Shown here piece by piece: positions 18,139 to 44,226 of a stretch of DNA of 44,308 bases; positions within the stretch are counted from its first letter, which is position 1; every line of letters starts with the position of its first letter. The notes below the pieces were generated by a model. It ran no database searches. It saw only the letters and a list, made by a program, of their open reading frames with translations, and was not told where the DNA came from. Source of the stretch: a virus; IMG/VR virus record IMGVR_UViG_3300036406_000404, positions 1-44,308 of that record, one strand, 5' to 3'. The translations under genes and the position numbers were made by a program.

Positions 18139-19601
18139 TGTTTACACAAAGCATGCCACAGCTGGCGCAGGCTCTTTCCGGCGCTCTGCCAGAAGCCGCG
18201 TTGCGGCAGCTGATGCAGGCTCTTGGCAACTGCCAGCAACCGCTCTCGCACCGCGGCGCTGTGAATCTTCAGCCGCCTACCTCAACCGGCCCTGGCGGGC
18301 TGGCAAGAAAAGGAGTGTGGAAGACATCCGACTACCCCGGACTGATTCCTACCGCTGGCCAAGATACGTTCGTTGATGTCGCTGGCGACACCTACACCAA
18401 CACCACCAACACCAACAACTACGACGGTCACCAGTTCAATTTCCCGATCAACCAAGACTTCAACTACAACAACTACTTCGGCGGCGATACGTTCAATGTC
18501 GCTGGCAACAGCACGTTCGACAACACCTACATCAACAACACTACCACCCAGAACCTCAACACTACCAATCTGAATGTTGAATACATCAACAACACCTACG
18601 TTGGCAGCCAAGGTCGCGATGGCCGCGATGGCTTCAACGGGCGCGACGGCATCACCACCGTCATTTTTCGCGGTGGCCCAGGCGGTGAGCAACAGAATTT
18701 CCCTACCGGCAACGCCCGCATTCTGAAAAGCGTGACTGTTAACGGCAAGGTGGATGTGCCACACGCCACCAACGCCCGCGTGTACGACAAGGCGGTAACG
18801 GTCGGCACCACTGAGGTAGACAGGGAGTTTACGGTTACGGGGCAGGTAGAAGTCCCGACCGTCGAAAGCGCGACCCTAAGTGCCATCGAAGCCAGTGGTA
18901 CGATAACGATACCGACCATCACTGGGGGAACTCTATCGGGCGCCACGGCGACCGGCACAATCTTCTACGACACGTACCCTAACGCAACGTGCGGCCCGCT
19001 GACGGCTTCCGTTGACATACCTACCAGCGGTACGTTTTCAGCAACCCCAACCGGCATCGCGGCCACTGGTGCGCTTGGAACGCTGGCAGGAACGGTCACG
19101 CTAGACATTCCCACCGGCGGCTATTTGGATGCTTCTTGCAAACTTGTCCTGACAACGACAAGCGTGACCAAGAGCGTTGTCTTCACAGGCGCGCCGAGCG
19201 TGTCCATTACCAGCCAAGGGAAGGTGGACGGGAACGTGACTCTCGTCTCGCCGGGGTCGTCCAAGTCCGTGACCGTCAACACGCCGACGATCACGCTGAC
19301 AAAGTCTTCTGCGTCTTCGTCCGTGTCGCTCAAGGTGAACGGCGGCACGTTCAGTCCAACGACCGGCAGCACCACATCTGCCGTCACGGTCAGTGCTGCG
19401 GGAGCGACCGTCACATTGACGGCAGGCACTACCGATGTGCAGGTGTCCTTGGATGGTTACGTGGCTGTCACGGAGCCTACGGGGGAAGGGACTTTGAAGG
19501 ACGACGAGGTGTTGCTGGATGAAGAGTATGAGTCAAAGAGAGTGGACATCACAGTAGTGCAAAAGGCAGACCAGCTGGTTTACTTGAGGCCGCGCATCTG
19601 A
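18138..19601 (+). CDS. Virion protein with Asn/Thr-rich and short collagen-like segments
   Basis: GTG 18138 overlaps the previous stop. The first 60 residues are helical. Residues about 80-155 are an Asn/Thr/Tyr-rich repeat (NNTY and NTTN units). Residues about 157-170 are Gly-X-Y triplets (GRDGRDGFNGRDG), a short collagen-like trimerising element. The remainder is a Thr/Val/Gly beta-rich body. The arrangement is that of a trimeric fibre or spike. There are very few Cys, in contrast to the next gene. No receptor or enzymatic function can be read. Confidence 0.7.
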   Translation: MFTQSMPQLAQALSGALPEAALRQLMQALGNCQQPLSHRGAVNLQPPTSTGPGGLARKGVWKTSDYPGLIPTAGQDTFVDVAGDTYTNTTNTNNYDGHQFNFPINQDFNYNNYFGGDTFNVAGNSTFDNTYINNTTTQNLNTTNLNVEYINNTYVGSQGRDGRDGFNGRDGITTVIFRGGPGGEQQNFPTGNARILKSVTVNGKVDVPHATNARVYDKAVTVGTTEVDREFTVTGQVEVPTVESATLSAIEASGTITIPTITGGTLSGATATGTIFYDTYPNATCGPLTASVDIPTSGTFSATPTGIAATGALGTLAGTVTLDIPTGGYLDASCKLVLTTTSVTKSVVFTGAPSVSITSQGKVDGNVTLVSPGSSKSVTVNTPTITLTKSSASSSVSLKVNGGTFSPTTGSTTSAVTVSAAGATVTLTAGTTDVQVSLDGYVAVTEPTGEGTLKDDEVLLDEEYESKRVDITVVQKADQLVYLRPRI

Positions 19602-20791
19602 TGACCTGTACCTGTTGCGAGACGGGCCGGTGCTGCAATGGGTCCGTGTGTAGGGACACTTCACAATCTGAATGTGTGTATCGGTTCGGAACATTCACCA
19701 CTGGTGGCGATTGCACTCAATACGCATGCACATCCGCACCGCCGTACAACACACCATGCACTCTCTCAAATGCCTGCGTCTGCTCCTCTGTCGGCAAAGT
19801 GCTGAACGCGCCACAGACTACCTGTAACTGCACCACTCTGACCGCAGCAGGAGTGCCGCACGGAGGGTGCCAAGCGTACTACTGCAACGCTTGCGTCTCA
19901 GGCTCCTGCGTTCTCACATGCGTTGCGCCTCGTTCCTGTTGTGCCGGTACGTGCTGCCCGCTGTCGCAGCGATGCGATAACGCTAGCGGGAACTGCGTGG
20001 ACAAGTGTACGACCGGCACCTTTTGCGCCGGTACTGGGGCGGCGTACGACTGCTGTGCGGTAGGAGAGAAGTGCTGTGGGCCGTCTGGTTGTTTAGCCAC
20101 CACAACCACCACGTACAGCCGCTCTGTCGTTATCGGAGACCCGGCAGGCTGGAATCAAGTAGTCATTACCATTCCTGACGGGGTGACAGTGACAATTACC
20201 GCTACTCAAAACACAGCGGCGCAAAGCCCGGATGGGGTTCCCGGCACCTCTGCAGATGCTTGCAATGTGATAGCGGTCAACAGGGCACGCCTCATCGGCA
20301 GGGTTGGAGACGTTGTTTTCGACATTGGCTCCAACTACACAGGCACACCAGGGGCCGGAGATCTTGCACTGCGACCCAACCTGACTAGCGGGAGTTGCAC
20401 CAACAACCAAGTTGGCAGCTATGCCGTGCAGATTTCTTTTACGACTGACCCTTGCCCAGGCTTCACGCCAGCTGCCATCGGTGAGCCAATCGTCTATGCG
20501 TCCGGTGAGGAACCGCCAGCCAGCACCGGCCCCGGCACGGAGCTAAAAGCTCTGCTGCGCCTAGCTGGGATTGTTGCCTCCCCTACGTGCAGTTGTAACG
20601 CGCGGGCTGCACAGATGGACGACTGGGGCGGGCGGGTGTGTTTGACACGCCTCCCAGAAATCTGTGGCTGGCTCAAAGAAGAGGCTGAAAAGCGGGGTTT
20701 GTGGTTTTTCCCACCCGCTGGATACGCCTTGATTCTGGCTGCGATTTCCCTGTCGGCACTGAAACAGACTCTCAGGGGCAATAACAAGTAG
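19601..20791 (+). CDS. Extremely Cys-rich protein with lectin-like domain and C-terminal membrane segment
   Basis: The first 164 residues contain 32 Cys, many as CC or CxC pairs (RSCCAGTCCP, EKCCGPSGC), a pattern of tightly disulfide-bonded or metal-binding modules. A beta-sandwich-like region follows (about 170-285, with RLIGRVGDVVFDIGSN and a PDG segment). It resembles the galactose-binding PA-IL/LecA-like fold. After a Cys-x-Cys at 330-332 comes a conserved-looking motif (NARAAQMDDWG ... WLKEEAEKRG), then a probable transmembrane helix near 375-390. It is coupled by ATGA to the preceding virion gene. I infer a surface adhesin or envelope-interaction protein; fold and disulfides are inferred, not shown. 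Confidence 0.7.
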   Translation: MTCTCCETGRCCNGSVCRDTSQSECVYRFGTFTTGGDCTQYACTSAPPYNTPCTLSNACVCSSVGKVLNAPQTTCNCTTLTAAGVPHGGCQAYYCNACVSGSCVLTCVAPRSCCAGTCCPLSQRCDNASGNCVDKCTTGTFCAGTGAAYDCCAVGEKCCGPSGCLATTTTTYSRSVVIGDPAGWNQVVITIPDGVTVTITATQNTAAQSPDGVPGTSADACNVIAVNRARLIGRVGDVVFDIGSNYTGTPGAGDLALRPNLTSGSCTNNQVGSYAVQISFTTDPCPGFTPAAIGEPIVYASGEEPPASTGPGTELKALLRLAGIVASPTCSCNARAAQMDDWGGRVCLTRLPEICGWLKEEAEKRGLWFFPPAGYALILAAISLSALKQTLRGNNK

Positions 20792-39015: not shown

Positions 39016-39340
39016 GGCTCTGGCCGTATCCCCCGACGACCCCTACCTACCCATCTGCGTTGAGCTATGGCGGCTCCTGAGCAGGAAGCGGGGGTACTAC
39101 GGGTGTGCGGAGGAAAGCCCGCTAGAGAACGCGCTAGGCGTTGCAGAGGACGGTATCGAACCGTGGGTCTACCAGCTGGCCAGGATCGGGGAGAAGTGCC
39201 GCCGCCTCCGGGGGATGATCGGCACAGATCGGACACTAGCTATTAGGGAAACGCTGGCCGACATCGCGGGCCACGCCATTGTGGCAATCGCAATCAATGA
39301 CACTACGGGAGAGGCTCATGGTCAATCTGAAGGTAGTTAA
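38939..39340 (+). CDS. MazG/DUF1599-like nucleotide-metabolism candidate
   Basis: ATG 38939 has GAGGAGGAG upstream (about 10-15 bases). The 133-residue protein is helical and contains GYYGCAEESPLENA, IGEKCRRLRG and RETLADIAGHAIVAIAI. These resemble the small all-alpha phage proteins of the DUF1599/MazG type (YG...N, KxxR, DtlxDxAgY). In that family some members hydrolyse nucleotides. The match is by pattern only. Confidence 0.55.
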   Translation: MTPTTIPVSGPNTADSLRLAESALGEALAVSPDDPYLPICVELWRLLSRKRGYYGCAEESPLENALGVAEDGIEPWVYQLARIGEKCRRLRGMIGTDRTLAIRETLADIAGHAIVAIAINDTTGEAHGQSEGS

Positions 39341-39674
39341 GTTCCTGCTTGCCCACCAAGCGGCGCTGGTCAAGGTGGTAGAGATCGCCAAGGCTTGGCG
39401 CAAGGATCTCCCCTACGGGGAGCAGTGGGCGCTGGTCGATTCGATTGCCCGGGTGCTGATCCCGATCTTGGAGGCGCAGGCTGTTGGCCCCAAGGCGCTG
39501 ACCACGCACCGCTTCCATGACGCGGAGTACGAAGAGCAGGACTACGAAGCCCTGGTCTTTGAGGCGGGTGCTGAGTGCGCCGCCCTGAGCGTGGACTGGA
39601 AGCTACTCATCGATGTGATCCTGCCCATCGTCATCTCAATCCTTAAAGCACTGGCTGCAGGCAAGGCAGAGTGA
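39318..39674 (+). CDS. Hypothetical protein before the protease gene
   Basis: GGGAGAGG stands before ATG 39318. The 118-residue product is helical, with an N-terminal amphipathic segment (NLKVVKFLLAHQAALVKVVE), a middle acidic YEEQDYEAL segment and a hydrophobic C-terminus (LLIDVILPIVISILKALAAG), a possible membrane helix. It overlaps the subtilase gene by GTGA. Together with the C-terminal helix this suggests a membrane-associated lysis-region protein. Confidence 0.6.
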   Translation: MVNLKVVKFLLAHQAALVKVVEIAKAWRKDLPYGEQWALVDSIARVLIPILEAQAVGPKALTTHRFHDAEYEEQDYEALVFEAGAECAALSVDWKLLIDVILPIVISILKALAAGKAE

Positions 39675-40612
39675 GCGGGTTCGTCCACCTCCCACCCTAT
39701 CGGGTCAACCTAGATGCCCCTCGCGCCCTCCAGCATGGAGTGGACTGGGGTGTCTGCTCTTACGGGATCCCCTCTCTGTGGCAGAAGTCACAGGGCGAAG
39801 GCGTGACGGTGGCCGTCATCGACAGTGGCGTTGCCAAGCACCATGCCTTGGACGAGGCGGTGGTTGACTACCGCAACTTCACATCCGACTCGGACCCGCA
39901 TGACACGCTTGGGCACGGTACGCATGTGAGCGGGATCATTGCTGCGCGCGGCGGGCTGGCTAAGGGCATCGCTCCCGCCTCCCGAATCCTCTCCCTCAAA
40001 GTCCTTGGACACAGCGGGATGGGAAGCAACGAGTGGGTGGCGCAGGCTGTGCGTCATGCCATCGAAGCCAAGGTGCAGATCATCTCCATGTCCTTGGGTT
40101 CCAGTCGCACGGACGATGGTGTTCATAGCGCACTGCGTGAAGCTCACGCTGCTGGCATTGTGGTGGTGTGCGCCGCAGGCAACGACGGTGGGTCTGTGAA
40201 CTACCCCGCCGCCTACCAAGAGACGGTCGCTGTTGGCGCAGTCGATAGCCACGGCGCAGCGTGTGAGTTCTCCAGCCGTGGGAAAGAGATTGCCGTCGCC
40301 GCACCAGGGCAGGACATCACCAGCACATGGTTGTCCGATGGCTACGCCACGGTGAGCGGGACAAGCATGGCCGCGCCGTTCGTCTCCGGTGTACTGGCGC
40401 TGTACATCTCGGCGCAGCACAAGCTGGATCGCACGGTGAACCATGCCGATGTGATGAAGGCGCTGTCCACCACATGCAAGGACGTTGGCGAGCAAGGCCG
40501 GGACAACGTCTACGGCTGGGGGCTAGTCGATCCGCACAAGCTGATGACCTACTCCATGCAGGCAAACATTAATGGAGTGACGATCTTTATCCCGGGAGCC
40601 AAGATCCTATGA
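39671..40612 (+). CDS. Subtilisin-like serine protease (S8)
   Basis: GTG 39671 overlaps the preceding stop. The 313-residue protein has a full subtilase triad: Asp51 (VAVIDSG), His82 (LGHGTHVSG), Ser232 (GTSMAAP), plus the oxyanion Asn171 (AAGNDGG). There is no signal peptide and hardly any propeptide (the catalytic domain starts near residue 30), so it would stay in the cytoplasm until membranes open. Subtilases are rare in phages. Position among small membrane proteins and a second protease suggests a role in lysis or host takeover. A C-terminal extension of 35 residues follows the catalytic domain. Confidence 0.9.
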   Translation: MSGFVHLPPYRVNLDAPRALQHGVDWGVCSYGIPSLWQKSQGEGVTVAVIDSGVAKHHALDEAVVDYRNFTSDSDPHDTLGHGTHVSGIIAARGGLAKGIAPASRILSLKVLGHSGMGSNEWVAQAVRHAIEAKVQIISMSLGSSRTDDGVHSALREAHAAGIVVVCAAGNDGGSVNYPAAYQETVAVGAVDSHGAACEFSSRGKEIAVAAPGQDITSTWLSDGYATVSGTSMAAPFVSGVLALYISAQHKLDRTVNHADVMKALSTTCKDVGEQGRDNVYGWGLVDPHKLMTYSMQANINGVTIFIPGAKIL

Positions 40613-40830
40613 CGACTGTACAGATTCTCGCCCTCGTTGCGGTGGCAGTTGCAGTGGTACTCACCTACCTCCCACTCAATGCAATCAAGCTGCCTGTCAG
40701 CAACAAGGGCAAGCCGTCGATCATGAAGCAGATCGAATCCATCGTCGCCGTGAAGGAGGCGAGCGAAGACGCCTCTGTCGTCAGCGCATGCAACGCCCTC
40801 CTCCAAGCACTGCTGAAGGTGAAGGCATGA
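40609..40830 (+). CDS. Small membrane protein in the lysis region
   Basis: ATG 40609 overlaps the subtilase stop (ATGA). The 73-residue product has one N-terminal transmembrane segment (ILALVAVAVAVVLTYLPL), followed by a Lys/Ser-rich soluble tail of about 45 residues. One-helix proteins of this type can be holins, pinholins or spanin-like partners; none can be assigned by sequence. Confidence 0.65.
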   Translation: MTTVQILALVAVAVAVVLTYLPLNAIKLPVSNKGKPSIMKQIESIVAVKEASEDASVVSACNALLQALLKVKA

Positions 40831-41216
40831 AGAACATCCCAGTGATCGTCGCCATAGTTGTCGCCGCCCTGACGTTCATCCCCTCTCCCAAGAAAGCCGA
40901 AGGCCCAGTCGCTACTGCGATGGCCGGGGCCAGCCGATCAGACCGCTCGCACCTCAAGGGTATCTACCTGTCCCTTGCCGATGTGACCGAGAAGGACAAC
41001 GGCAACCTCATCAGCACCGTGGGTATGTGGCGGCAGCTGCACATCAACACGCTGAAGCTGGCCGCTGCTGACATGCGCGGCAAGTACGCTGGCCTGGACG
41101 TTGCCGTTGAGAAGGTGATGGCCGACAAGTTCCCTCTGGATGATGCACCACTTAGCCCCTCGCTAGTGAACCAGATCGCAGCCGCATGCCGGGAGGTGGC
41201 GAAACAAAGTGAGTGA
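40827..41216 (+). CDS. Exported or membrane-anchored hypothetical protein
   Basis: ATG 40827 forms ATGA with the preceding stop; the upstream in-frame ATG at 40788 is not supported. Residues 1-18 are hydrophobic (NIPVIVAIVVAALTFIP), acting as a signal or anchor, followed by about 110 soluble helical residues (YLSLADVTEKDNG ... LHINTLKLAAADMRGKY). It overlaps the endonuclease gene by 8 bases. It sits between two proteases, so action in or at the envelope is plausible. Confidence 0.65.
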   Translation: MKNIPVIVAIVVAALTFIPSPKKAEGPVATAMAGASRSDRSHLKGIYLSLADVTEKDNGNLISTVGMWRQLHINTLKLAAADMRGKYAGLDVAVEKVMADKFPLDDAPLSPSLVNQIAAACREVAKQSE

Positions 41217-41862
41217 GAAGTCTTGCACAGTCTGCGGCATCACAAAGCCGCTGACTGAATACAGCCCGTGCCGCAATGGCTACCAGCCGTCTTGCAAAAG
41301 ATGTCGCAATTACAAGTCGGCTGCCAAGAACATTTGCGTAAACGTGACAGAGCAAACGTGCAGAAATTGCAAGCAGCGAAAGTCGGCAAGCGATTTCAAC
41401 AGAGCAAAGCACAAGAGCAGCGGCCTGCAAAGCGAGTGCAAGCTCTGCACAAATGCACGCAAGTCTGCCGTGCATTACGAAGTGTCTGTTGTGTCCCAGG
41501 TTTGTAGCGACTGCGGCGCGGAAAAGCCAGCATCGGAATTCCCTCGCGCAACCAAGCGAGCGTCCGGCATCCGAAAGGAATGCAAGGACTGCACAAGCAT
41601 CCGCAACCGCGCTCACACCTATGCACTGACATTGGAAGAAGTGCGAGACATGTGCAGCGTAGAAGCCTGCGACATATGCGGAGCGGCTTTCTCTAACGCA
41701 AGTGAACGCAACATCGATCACTGCCACGCTACTGGTGTAGTGCGAGGCACACTCTGCAACCTGTGCAACCGGCTGCTCGGCAGTGCGAAGGACAATCCTG
41801 CTGTCTTGGAAATGGCAGCAAACTATCTGAGAGCTACTTCTCAGGAGGCATGCTGTGGCTGA
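41209..41862 (+). CDS. Endonuclease VII-type nuclease with three Zn-ribbon repeats
   Basis: GTG 41209 overlaps the preceding gene. The 217 residues start with three four-Cys repeats (C6/C9-C29/C32, C51/C54-C77/C80, C99/C102-C125/C128). They are followed by a recombination endonuclease VII domain: C154/C157, RNIDHCHATGVVRG (Asp170-His171, His173), C183/C186 and a C-terminal helix. T4-type enzymes resolve branched DNA; many such genes move as homing elements. Codon third positions look less G+C-rich than neighbours, hinting at transfer. It splits the lysis-like region. Confidence 0.85.
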   Translation: MSEKSCTVCGITKPLTEYSPCRNGYQPSCKRCRNYKSAAKNICVNVTEQTCRNCKQRKSASDFNRAKHKSSGLQSECKLCTNARKSAVHYEVSVVSQVCSDCGAEKPASEFPRATKRASGIRKECKDCTSIRNRAHTYALTLEEVRDMCSVEACDICGAAFSNASERNIDHCHATGVVRGTLCNLCNRLLGSAKDNPAVLEMAANYLRATSQEACCG

Positions 41863-42802
41863 CGAAAAAGACAACGTGTTCCAGCCGCTAGCGGCGTACG
41901 ATGCTGGGCTGCAGGGCTACATCGACAGTGCGCGTGAGCGTGGCCTGTTTGGTGAATCCCAGAGGCAGTCGGTTTATTATGAGCCGAACACAATGGGCAG
42001 CGGGGAAGGCCAGCGTGCCGCTCTGTGGGCGTACACGCAGAAGCTAGACCCCCTGTCTTTCACTGAGGTTCAGACGACTGGCGACTGCACTTCCCACTGC
42101 TCGCGCAACGCTATCGATACGACCAGGGCCACGCAAATCTGCATTGAGAACCGGCCGGAAAGTTTTGTCGTCCGAAGCGCAACGGAACCTACGTACGGTG
42201 CGCGTGGGCACGCGGGAGAAGGCATGTCCCCGGCCCGCGCGGCGATGTTCGTCAACGAAACTGGCTTCTTGTTGCGTAAGAAATACGACGCGGTTGATCT
42301 TGCGAAATACAACAGCAGCATCGGTACGCGGTGGGGCAGTGGCGGTGTGCCGGAAGAAGTGAAGTCCCTGTGCCGCAGCAATAAGGTCGGTGTCATCCGC
42401 CAGCTGACCCGGATGAGCGATGCGGTCGATGCCTTGTTCAACGGATACGCGATAGCATCGGGGCAGTTCGCCTCTTGGTCGCAGCACCCCAGCAAAGACC
42501 ACATCCATCCGCGCACGGCAGGAGGCTGGTCGCACGCGATGGCCACGGTCGGCATGGACTTCACTCGCAAGTTCTGGCCGTTCGATGTGTTCTTCATCCA
42601 GAATTCCTGGGGTGCGTGGAACCAGCCTCCCAAAGAATGGCCAACCTACCTGCCACCGTGGGTGCCAGGGATGATCGTCACCAAGGCTGAAGACTGGGAG
42701 GTCTGCATCCGCGGCGGCGACTGCTACGCCTACGGCAATGTGGATGGCTTCCCCCCTCAGAAGCTGCCCGACTACGGCACCATCGGACTACTGCAAACAT
42801 GA
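41855..42802 (+). CDS. Papain-like cysteine protease (C1A-type)
   Basis: GTG 41855 is preceded by AGGAGG. The 315-residue protein has the papain order: Gln73 with Cys78 (VQTTGDCTSHCSRN), then His227 (GGWSHAMAT) and Asn250 (FIQNSWGAWN), all at plausible spacing. The N-terminal 60 residues could act as a propeptide or adaptor; no signal peptide is seen. In phages C1A enzymes are very unusual. It overlaps the preceding nuclease by 8 bases and the next Cys-rich peptide by ATGA. The substrate is unknown, perhaps a protein-rich envelope. Confidence 0.85.
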   Translation: MADEKDNVFQPLAAYDAGLQGYIDSARERGLFGESQRQSVYYEPNTMGSGEGQRAALWAYTQKLDPLSFTEVQTTGDCTSHCSRNAIDTTRATQICIENRPESFVVRSATEPTYGARGHAGEGMSPARAAMFVNETGFLLRKKYDAVDLAKYNSSIGTRWGSGGVPEEVKSLCRSNKVGVIRQLTRMSDAVDALFNGYAIASGQFASWSQHPSKDHIHPRTAGGWSHAMATVGMDFTRKFWPFDVFFIQNSWGAWNQPPKEWPTYLPPWVPGMIVTKAEDWEVCIRGGDCYAYGNVDGFPPQKLPDYGTIGLLQT

Positions 42803-43050
42803 TCAGTCTCATCTTCTCGCTGCTGTTCCCTGTGCCCACATTCCCTGAGCGGGTAGCAGTGGAGGCAGCGTACGTTGTCACCACCTACGTTGCACCCAAG
42901 TCCAAGTGCTGCGGGCTGTGCAAGAACGGCAAGATCACGCACGGCGATGGGCATGTGACCGACTGCGCGTGCCCGCCTGGGTGCGCATGTAAGACCAAGT
43001 CTGTGCTTGTCCCCTCTAAGGAATGCAAGACATGCTTGCCCAGCAAATAG
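42799..43050 (+). CDS. Small Cys-rich protein with N-terminal hydrophobic segment
   Basis: The ATGA overlap fixes the start at 42799. Residues 1-14 are a hydrophobic segment (MISLIFSLLFPVPT), probably a signal or anchor. The C-terminal half holds ten Cys (KCCGLCKNGK, THGDGHVTDCACPPGCACK, CKTC), with His/Asp between, fit for metal or disulfide binding. It follows the cysteine protease, as if partner or inhibitor. I recognise no family. Confidence 0.65.
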   Translation: MISLIFSLLFPVPTFPERVAVEAAYVVTTYVAPKSKCCGLCKNGKITHGDGHVTDCACPPGCACKTKSVLVPSKECKTCLPSK

Positions 43051-43337
43051 CATTGCGGTGTGCGGAAGAGACTGGTGCTGCTCGCATGTCCAAGCACGGC
43101 GAGGAGGTGGCGCTGATCGCAATCGCCACTGCCAATCCCGACAAGCGCGCATGGAAGAAGCAGATCCGCAGTGAGTTCCGCGCCCGTCACCAGGAATGCG
43201 GATCGGTCCTGCTGCTGATCGTCCTCCCCATCATCATCAACCTCATCAGTGCATGGCTAGCCAAATGGATTTTCAGCGAACACCCAACAAGCCTAGAGCA
43301 CCTGAGACTGGAAGCGAACTCAGCTTTGAAGTCTTAG
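43032..43337 (+). CDS. Membrane protein, holin-like candidate
   Basis: ATG 43032 (AAGGA nine bases upstream) is preferred to 43023, where the ribosome site would touch the start. The 101-residue product has a charged helical N-terminus and one strong transmembrane helix (VLLLIVLPIIINLISAWLAK, about 60-79), then a short soluble tail. It may be a holin or a membrane anchor for a lysis complex. It overlaps both neighbours in other frames. Confidence 0.6.
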   Translation: MLAQQIALRCAEETGAARMSKHGEEVALIAIATANPDKRAWKKQIRSEFRARHQECGSVLLLIVLPIIINLISAWLAKWIFSEHPTSLEHLRLEANSALKS

Positions 43338-43492
43338 CCCGATACAACGGGCACACCCACATGTACAGATACCCCGAAGCCGACGCCTTCAAAGCAACGC
43401 GGATGATCAAACTCCACGTTGAGGAAGGGCAGCTACACCCGTACGCGGGACTCATGTTAATCGCCATGGTGAGGGGAACAGATGTCGCCTGA
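43253..43492 (+). CDS. Small hypothetical protein
   Basis: The frame is open from before 43253; ATG 43253 and 43265 are both possible and neither has a good ribosome site. The 79-residue form has an N-terminal Pro/Thr-rich stretch and an alpha/beta domain (ELSFEVLARYNGHTHMYRY ... HPYAGLMLIAMVRG). The overlap with the membrane protein is 85 bases. No family is recognised. Confidence 0.5.
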   Translation: MASQMDFQRTPNKPRAPETGSELSFEVLARYNGHTHMYRYPEADAFKATRMIKLHVEEGQLHPYAGLMLIAMVRGTDVA

Positions 43493-43709
43493 GACAGAGT
43501 TGTGGATGCTGGGCATTTCGGTTGCCGCAGCGGTAGTCCCGTGGGCATTCAGCCTGCATGCCAAGGTTGCGGTAATAGCCAGTAGCGTGGAGTCATTGCC
43601 CCGCATGCTGGACGAACTGCGCCAGACCATAGAGGAACATGAGGTTCGTCTGAACGCGCATGACAAAACGATTGAAGCTCTCAGCCAAGCGTCAACGCCT
43701 AGTCGTTGA
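43482..43709 (+). CDS. Membrane-anchored coiled-coil protein (spanin/holin candidate)
   Basis: ATG 43482 has GAGGGG upstream. The 75-residue product has one N-terminal transmembrane segment (LWMLGISVAAAVVPWAFSL) and a long Glu/Arg/Leu heptad helix to the end. The layout (inner membrane anchor plus coiled coil) is that of small holins and i-spanins. It overlaps the sigma-like gene by 50 bases. Confidence 0.6.
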   Translation: MSPETELWMLGISVAAAVVPWAFSLHAKVAVIASSVESLPRMLDELRQTIEEHEVRLNAHDKTIEALSQASTPSR

Positions 43710-44226
43710 GTACATGCCGCTCGCGGCGATACTCGCAAAGTATTTCCTGCAGAACCGCCCCGGGTGGCAGCGGTCGGTGCTGGTCGAAGACCTGCAGAGC
43801 GAGGGGTATCTGGCGCTGGTCAAAGCTGCCCGAACCTATGACCCCAAGCGGTTGCCCTACCCCAAGGCATACTTCGCCAGGGCTGTACTCAACGCCATGT
43901 ACAAGGCGATTAAGAAGCTAGCCCGCCAGCCAGGGGAGATTCGCATCACACTGGAGGAAGCAGCCGACCTGCTGCCAGAGTTCGATCACGTTGACCACAT
44001 CCGGCTGGCCATCGCTGATCTCCCAGAGTGGGAGCAGGAGCTAGCTACCGACAGGTTCATCAACGGCAAGACACTCAGAGCGTTGGCTGAGTCGCATGAG
44101 ATTTCTCTGCGCGCTGCATCTCGTCGCGCCACTGCGCTTGCGAAAGTCTTGGCGGAATCTTTGGGTATCCAGCTGACGCTGCCCGATGCAGAGCAACTGT
44201 GTCTGACAGGCCGTAGTACCCCCTGA
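43660..44226 (+). CDS. Sigma-70-like transcription factor
   Basis: ATG 43660 is the start that keeps region 2 whole. The 188 residues read as sigma region 2 (AKRQRLVVEYMPLAAILAKYFL, then VEDLQSEGYLALVKAA, a TYDPKR turn and an AYFARAVLNAMYKAIKK helix). A short linker follows, then region 4 (LPEWEQELATDRFINGKTLR, ESHEISLRAASRRAT), a helix-turn-helix for the -35 box. It probably redirects host RNA polymerase, presumably to late genes, though no conserved late promoter was found. It is the last plus-strand gene in the window. Confidence 0.75.
   Translation: MTKRLKLSAKRQRLVVEYMPLAAILAKYFLQNRPGWQRSVLVEDLQSEGYLALVKAARTYDPKRLPYPKAYFARAVLNAMYKAIKKLARQPGEIRITLEEAADLLPEFDHVDHIRLAIADLPEWEQELATDRFINGKTLRALAESHEISLRAASRRATALAKVLAESLGIQLTLPDAEQLCLTGRSTP

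Follow-up and report, generated by a model that had tools for sequence, protein, structure and literature searches.

The window analysed here, a stretch of viral DNA of 44,308 nucleotides (positions 1-44,308 of record IMGVR_UViG_3300036406_000404), carries close to its end a coupled run of genes, approximately at 39318-43709, encoding a subtilase, a papain-like protease, five single-span membrane proteins and a Cys-rich protein, together with an endonuclease-type insertion (Table 1). We suggest, with a probability of about 0.55, that this cassette serves as a lysis module of the phage, with a C1A papain-type protease standing in for the endolysin; on sequence comparison its core is the papain and a membrane-anchored helical protein of 129 amino acids (aa). 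An earlier note on this DNA had proposed lysis by two proteases released by a holin-like protein. The proteolytic part of that idea gains support from the lack of a recognisable endolysin, from the pairing of the two proteases in 61 of 76 loci, from a holin match in one of ten proteins tested from relatives and from cassettes lying next to terminase genes in chromosomes, while the subtilase turned out to be optional. We infer the lysis function of the cassette, and likewise the export route, the redox role and the substrate discussed below.

The papain-like protease, its partner and the subtilase

The earlier note had described a complete papain-like protease with Cys78, His227 and Asn250. Cys78 and His227 are invariant in 19/19 aligned sequences, and Asn250 in 16/19, being replaced by Gln in L026, L034 and L035; in a wider alignment (22 rows, down to 23% identity) Gln73, Cys78 and His227 are invariant, and Asn250 and Trp252 are kept in at least 90%. 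The order Gln/Cys/His/Asn, with Trp after the Asn, is that of a C1A active site. At the level of profiles the family is hardly visible: for the window papain neither Pfam nor PHROG gave a family at E ≤ 1, and 3/19 relatives matched Peptidase_C1 weakly at the same threshold (best 0.019), which is below the Pfam cut-off. A tblastn search with five versions of the papain against 50,697 phage records gave no homologue. The structure predicted by AlphaFold2 (mean predicted local distance difference test score, pLDDT, 67; predicted template modelling score 0.78) has the C1A papain fold and resembles xylellain and cathepsins; the best Foldseek match was 3ois (E 6.6e-6), and VIA-align gave a Z of 16.1 and a root-mean-square deviation of 3.5 over 225 aligned residues. 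The best 50 rows of each structural comparison were all C1-type papain-fold proteins, and neither NlpC/P60 nor CHAP proteins were among the matches listed, which in itself is not evidence of their absence.

To evaluate the conservation of the cassette, 76 loci were gathered by papain or subtilase searches, excluding repeat contigs but including some near-identical phages. A subtilase was present in 61 of them, each of which has the papain downstream of it on the same strand, at no more than 4.5 kb. The papain occurs without the subtilase in 15 loci, of which L053, L069 and L075 are plainly cut at contig ends; for the remaining 12, a search of the whole record with the subtilase profile gave none, or distant ones elsewhere (best E 3.4e-28). 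Thus, the conserved pairing that the earlier note proposed to look for exists in the majority of loci, but the subtilase is optional, and therefore the idea of two proteases reduces to a papain core.

The constant companion of the papain is the 129-aa protein. A profile built from the window group only found 10 open reading frames (ORFs) at E < 0.01 among 22 divergent papain loci, and after three profile rounds the partner was recognised in 16/22, always at 2.3 kb or less from the papain. Papain and partner recur without subtilase in other phages and in chromosomes of Planctomycetota. In the window and in most relatives seen the partner has a membrane anchor, and its start is lipoprotein-like in L135 and L150 (by eye); its AlphaFold2 model is helical (pLDDT 90.7), with no PDB match at E ≤ 0.001 and weak matches to viral models (best 0.019). 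Homologues of the Cys-rich protein were found in 8 of the 22 divergent loci. By eye, the Cys-rich motif is joined to a thioredoxin-like region in L052 and L150, and the 129-aa protein is seemingly fused to it in L050 and L051, two contigs of one genome (weak 129-aa profile, E 0.15). Thioredoxin-like genes with signal-like starts lie 3' of the papain in L130, L131 and L133, and PF00085 was matched by 4 of 138 neighbour proteins of the chromosomal loci, a scan that gives families and not individual members, so that the four are not named. Because of these fusions and neighbours, we suggest that papain, partner and redox protein act in one compartment beyond the inner membrane. Consistent with this, an N-terminal membrane segment (mean hydropathy > 1.6) is present in 7 of 33 papain homologues examined, namely those of L130, L131, L133, L134, L148 and L151, on long contigs, and of L152, on a 37-kb contig.

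Two further loci are worth describing. In L113 (3534-9400) a papain cassette without subtilase has in its vicinity a thioredoxin-like gene and a trypsin-like protease whose start is signal-like (by eye), possibly another protease pairing. The record G017 (IMGVR 3300049595_001870, 117,778 bases) contains two different terminase genes and two cassettes, and therefore looks like two phage genomes joined.

The subtilase is complete, as had been claimed: it matches PF00082 with an E of 2.2e-54, it has the S8 catalytic domain with Asp, His and Ser, and the triad Asp51/His82/Ser232 is unchanged in 19/19 aligned sequences, as is the motif HLPPY near the N-terminus. Among phage records it was matched in 80, every match being below 60% identity. 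In a profile search of solved structures the intracellular subtilisins rank first, and two top alignments, which span the N-terminus, place HLPPY opposite the LIPY/LIPF motif. The motif helps to block the active site of intracellular subtilisins and follows the pattern [LVI]-[IFLV]-P-[YFH] (PMC6220982); HLPPY, having Pro at the second position, falls outside it. Judging from these similarities the subtilase resembles an intracellular subtilisin, and it may act in the cytoplasm.

This resemblance, including the N-terminal motif (PMC6220982), is an argument for a quite unlikely alternative, in which both enzymes work inside the cell, in the takeover of the host, the recycling of amino acids or the late processing of proteins, and the membrane proteins belong to another lysis system, whose lysin has gone unrecognised. 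The leaderless window proteases and the location of the cassette, downstream of recombination, helicase and nuclease genes of the phage genome, would agree with such a role. A constant partner held in the membrane, the membrane segment of the 7/33 papain homologues and the position upstream of terminase in several chromosomal loci do not.

Support for the catalytic activity of both proteases comes from inteins in relatives of the window. An insert of 1197 bases with the intein ends C...VHN interrupts the papain gene immediately ahead of Cys78 in L018, L025 and L036. An intein begins with Cys and ends with His-Asn or Ser-Asn, is followed by Cys, Ser or Thr, and lies in frame at a conserved site; all these features are present in the three papain genes and in the subtilase gene of L073 (Table 1). 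Since inteins favour conserved sites of important enzymes, their insertion at active-site motifs argues that the two proteases are active. That splicing times the protease activity is a speculation.

Muralytic enzymes, holins and a possible order of events

The window is a fragment of a phage genome of approximately 61.8 kb. The size was obtained by arithmetic on the two terminase copies of the record G001 (62,982 bases), which has redundant ends and whose papain, subtilase and terminase are 100% identical to those of the window. About 17.5 kb outside the window were recovered as L042, which contains some 33 small opposite-strand genes, a resolvase and a methyltransferase-like gene among them, followed by scaffold-like (by eye) and capsid genes. 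In comparison with isolated phages the terminase gave matches of only 23-25% identity, to four Manatee Spring contigs, and the capsid had no match in the search of phage records.

The endolysin expected of a holin-endolysin cassette was not found. No muralytic Pfam family was matched by the 99 predicted proteins of the genome (10 + 10 + 37 + 42), in a scan which omitted a few overlapping ORFs such as 43196-43492, and SLT, Phage_lysozyme (PF00959), Amidase_2, M23 and NLPC_P60 were each absent, in six-frame searches, from 38 related records, many of which may be fragments. Of 14 known genomes used as a control, the same searches matched SLT in 8, Phage_lysozyme in 3, Amidase_2 in 6, M23 in 10 and NLPC_P60 in 9. 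The statement of the earlier note that the window has no muralytic gene therefore holds and extends, by Pfam, to the rest of the genome, including the recovered 17.5 kb, where the note had asked for such a search. PHROG comparisons, given as the best 25 of 65 families for genome set A3 and the best 25 of 31 for the 17.5-kb part, so that weak single matches may lie outside these lists, returned two names to be considered. One is phrog_873, annotated 'endolysin', in the 17.5-kb part: the match covers about 50 residues only (positions 1044-1093 of a 1277-position family), and the gene fits the model of the ART-PolyVal ADP-ribosyltransferases, so that the label is misleading and the gene was rejected as a lysin. 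This gene lies at 3246-4205 of L042, on the minus strand, adjoining the scaffold-like and capsid genes. The other is phrog_1922, to which we return below.

The cassette also contains the small membrane proteins claimed previously, five of them with one hydrophobic segment each, and the Cys-rich protein. The 118-aa protein was assigned a start at 39318 because most relatives begin with MNLK. In the window the 75-aa protein weakly matches phrog_1296 (holin, E 0.011), phrog_739 (Rz-like spanin, 0.02) and XhlA (0.082). Among relatives, a gene of L050 (8667-8852) matches the PHROG holin families phrog_9987 (1e-4), phrog_297 (5.9e-4) and phrog_4712 (1.2e-3). Thus, of the holin-like release which the earlier note proposed to check with profiles, the L050 gene speaks in favour, whereas the window proteins give weak matches only. 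In the divergent cassettes the 104-aa protein was matched by profile in 3/22 loci, and the 73-aa, 75-aa and tail-anchored proteins had no profile match (E < 0.01) to the small proteins there.

If the cassette is a lysis module, one or more of the 118-, 73-, 104- and 75-aa membrane proteins would open the inner membrane as holins, and the soluble papain would then reach the periplasm, where the anchored 129-aa partner might hold or fold it. The exported Cys-rich protein might keep the papain reduced, or help by reducing disulfides, and the papain would cut a structural protein of the envelope. Some endolysins, of the signal-arrest-release (SAR) type, are secreted without a holin, and the anchored papains of some chromosomal relatives could be exported in the same way. 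The subtilase would be an accessory of this phage group, activating the papain or degrading cytoplasmic protein late.

Chromosomal relatives, hosts and competing explanations

In four loci from Planctomycetota assemblies (L130, L131, L133 and L152) the papain cassette is followed by a terminase gene, and in L130 and L131 portal- and capsid-type genes come after the terminase (by eye). The Pfam families matched by the 138 neighbours (best 25 of 48 families) include those of portal, terminase, capsid and tail-tube proteins. Some phages cut their head or tail proteins, and part of the chromosomal loci have the papain close to genes of the head or tail, which could point to proteases of virion maturation or entry. 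This is very improbable, since the proteases of the window group lie far from the capsid gene (as seen in L042), L130, L131 and L134 carry prohead-protease-like genes of their own (by eye), and membrane anchors do not fit. The earlier note held that proteases lying inside head modules of related phages would speak against lysis, and L134 and L148 come near to this situation.

A fairly unlikely alternative is that the cassette modifies the envelope, for superinfection exclusion or lysogenic conversion, by an exported or membrane-held protease that trims surface proteins such as receptors. The anchored papain and lipoprotein-like partner of some chromosomal loci would suit this function, as would the position of the L134 and L148 cassettes and the L135 cassette, which has no visible structural genes. 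On the other hand, the papain of the window group has no anchor, and the cassette is kept by the whole of a phage group for which the searches gave no lysin, as would be expected of an essential function more than of an accessory one.

As regards the host, the phage profile, run against 84,980 species genomes, found eight loci, four of them in metagenome-assembled genomes (MAGs) of Planctomycetota. The Pirellulaceae MAG L046 holds the whole cassette in order; the other loci belong to two Planctomycetaceae, one Pirellulales, a Flavobacteriales, a SAR202 and a Lokiarchaeota (two contigs of one MAG), and those outside the Planctomycetota may be mis-binned phages. The phage profile matched 8/392 Planctomycetota genomes, centre included, and a wider profile, at E ≤ 1e-30, 13/392 against 1/395 of Bacteroidota. 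Of these 13, six contribute rows to the query alignment and a seventh is the centre; the sole Bacteroidota match is likewise a query row, which leaves an independent count of 6 against 0. Taken together, these distributions indicate that the hosts of the phage family are probably Planctomycetes.

The nature of the envelope in these bacteria is disputed. Most Planctomycetales are reported to be without peptidoglycan genes and to have instead Cys-rich wall proteins with YTV domains (PMC8567305), while another study describes sacculi that contain peptidoglycan and are broken by lysozyme in the species examined (PMC4432640). The first report favours the idea of the earlier note that the phage attacks an unusual, protein-rich envelope, and the second is contrary to it. 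A protease lysin might thus be sensible in protein-walled Planctomycetales, whereas hosts with peptidoglycan might point to an endopeptidase of unexpected fold. The latter possibility, that the papain itself is a peptidoglycan endopeptidase and fills the ordinary endolysin role by a fold new to it, is unlikely: it agrees with the peptidoglycan of the tested species, with the absence of the five muralytic families sought from the 38 records and with the lysin-like company of the gene, and it is opposed by structural comparisons whose 50 listed rows are all C1-type proteins and by the reported lack of peptidoglycan genes in most Planctomycetales.

Several observations weigh against a lysis module. 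Muralytic enzymes that are divergent, or carried in the virion, could be encoded without matching Pfam, and one protein of genome set A3, not localised, matches phrog_1922 ('baseplate hub subunit and tail lysozyme', 1.5e-16), although Pfam found no lysozyme domain in the protein set that contains it, nor PF00959 in the 38 records. The window papain and subtilase are both without a hydrophobic leader, no small protein of the window is a convincing holin by Pfam or PHROG profiles, 9/10 proteins tested from relatives match no holin family, and the only one that does, in L050, is on a contig binned as Lokiarchaeota and not Planctomycetota. In L132 the papain cassette lies about 4.7 kb from a portal-type gene, and the papain of L134 and L148 has capsid-region genes on one side and tail genes on the other (all by eye), a head-tail position that also fits a moron. 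The papain cassette of L135 (9651-11980) is part of a Planctomycetota chromosome, and the 20 kb read there show no phage structural genes, suggesting a remnant or a host-adopted module. Hosts were assigned from MAG binning and from distant homologues, and at E ≤ 1e-3 the wider profile matched 23/392 Planctomycetota and 11/395 Bacteroidota genomes. Moreover, since the sacculi are sensitive to lysozyme, a protease alone might not suffice, and another planctomycete phage is described as released chronically without lysis (PMC10945688).

A more far-reaching proposal, which we consider possible but rather doubtful, is that planctomycete phages lyse their hosts by proteolysis, with no need of a peptidoglycan hydrolase: the papain, reduced by the exported Cys-rich or thioredoxin partner and tethered by the phage-specific helical protein, would dismantle a disulfide-rich protein wall, and in some phages activation would be gated in addition by inteins, which divide the catalytic motif of one or the other protease up to the time of splicing. 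Among titles and beginnings of abstracts of open-licence PMC papers on planctomycete phages, lysis, papain and prophages, no such cassette is described.

Features of the locus and comparison with known systems

All the cassette genes claimed by the earlier note, and the sigma-like gene that follows them, are present, as judged from reading frames, overlaps and the match to PF04542 (Table 1). Four-base overlaps (ATGA or GTGA) join the genes at four junctions. The endonuclease gene, which had been overlooked, occupies this position in 11/61 loci, and therefore it is probably mobile and outside the cassette core. Elsewhere in the window (19601-20791), downstream of fibre-like genes, lies the gene of a 396-aa protein that contains 39 cysteines and has a hydrophobic stretch at its C-terminal end; it had no Pfam match at E ≤ 0.1 and no PHROG match at E ≤ 0.001.

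Table 1. Features of the cassette in the window and inteins in related loci; fractions refer to the 61 loci with subtilase.
Feature	Position	Strand	Evidence and remarks
118-aa protein, C-terminal hydrophobic tail (tail-anchored; possible holin-type)	39318..39674	+	ORF 39279-39674; 61/61 loci
Subtilase, intracellular-subtilisin type	39671..40612	+	PF00082 2.2e-54, phrog_3677 7.7e-75; N-terminal HLPPY; no hydrophobic leader
73-aa protein, one N-terminal membrane segment	40609..40830	+	55/61 loci
129-aa membrane-anchored helical protein, constant papain partner	40827..41216	+	61/61 loci
Endonuclease VII/HNH-type insertion	41209..41862	+	PF02945 1e-17; between 129-aa protein and papain
Papain-like (C1A) protease, candidate lysin	41855..42802	+	Cys78, His227, Asn250, Gln73; predicted fold
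Cys-rich protein, signal-like start by eye	42799..43050	+	CCGxCKNG..HGDGH..CPCP..C; 9 Cys; 50/61 loci
104-aa protein, one membrane segment	43023..43337	+	42/61 loci
Small soluble protein, start uncertain	43196..43492	+	52/61 loci; outside Pfam/PHROG scans
75-aa protein, N-terminal membrane segment and coiled coil (by eye), weakly holin/XhlA/spanin-like	43482..43709	+	58/61 loci
Sigma-70-like factor	43660..44226	+	PF04542 4.6e-8; directly 3' of cassette; 58/61 loci
Papain inteins	L018 11749-12945; L025 and L036 11767-12963		sequence read
Papain intein	L075 239-1438		same split, by position only
Subtilase intein	L073 5488-6717		C...VSN before Thr84 within GHGTH motif, catalytic His

If the proposed function is true, the cassette would represent a bacteriophage lysis strategy independent of the degradation of peptidoglycan, and these phages could serve as probes in a long dispute, namely which of the two, peptidoglycan or a protein wall, Planctomycetes rely on. 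Further cassettes of this kind could be sought with the constant papain partner as a marker.

The individual components have recognisable counterparts. The window subtilase is like the intracellular subtilisins of Bacillus and Planococcus in being leaderless, in its short N-terminal extension with a LIPY-like motif and in its best PDB matches, but with HLPPY it departs from the published pattern, and it is encoded within a phage cassette of membrane proteins. The papain shares the predicted fold and the Gln-Cys-His-Asn active site with xylellain and other C1A proteases, and it differs from them in its low identity (10-18% in the rows listed), in being phage-encoded, in its constant partner and in falling below the Pfam cut-offs. 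Cwp84, a protease associated with the surface layer of Clostridioides, ranks 21 against the papain model (Z 14.3).

As a whole, the cassette is best compared with the holin-endolysin lysis cassettes of tailed phages, which are of the lambda type or of the SAR/secreted type. As in these, small membrane proteins stand beside one soluble or anchored degradative enzyme, just upstream of terminase in several chromosomal loci, and soluble and anchored forms of the enzyme both occur in the papain family. The difference lies in the enzyme, which is a C1A-type protease and not a glycosidase, an amidase or an endopeptidase of the NlpC, CHAP, M15 or M23 kind, and in a holin which is a candidate. A cysteine peptidase as viral lysin is found also in the pseudomurein endoisopeptidases, the lysins by which viruses of methanogens attack an unusual wall; both the peptidase family and the wall are different there.

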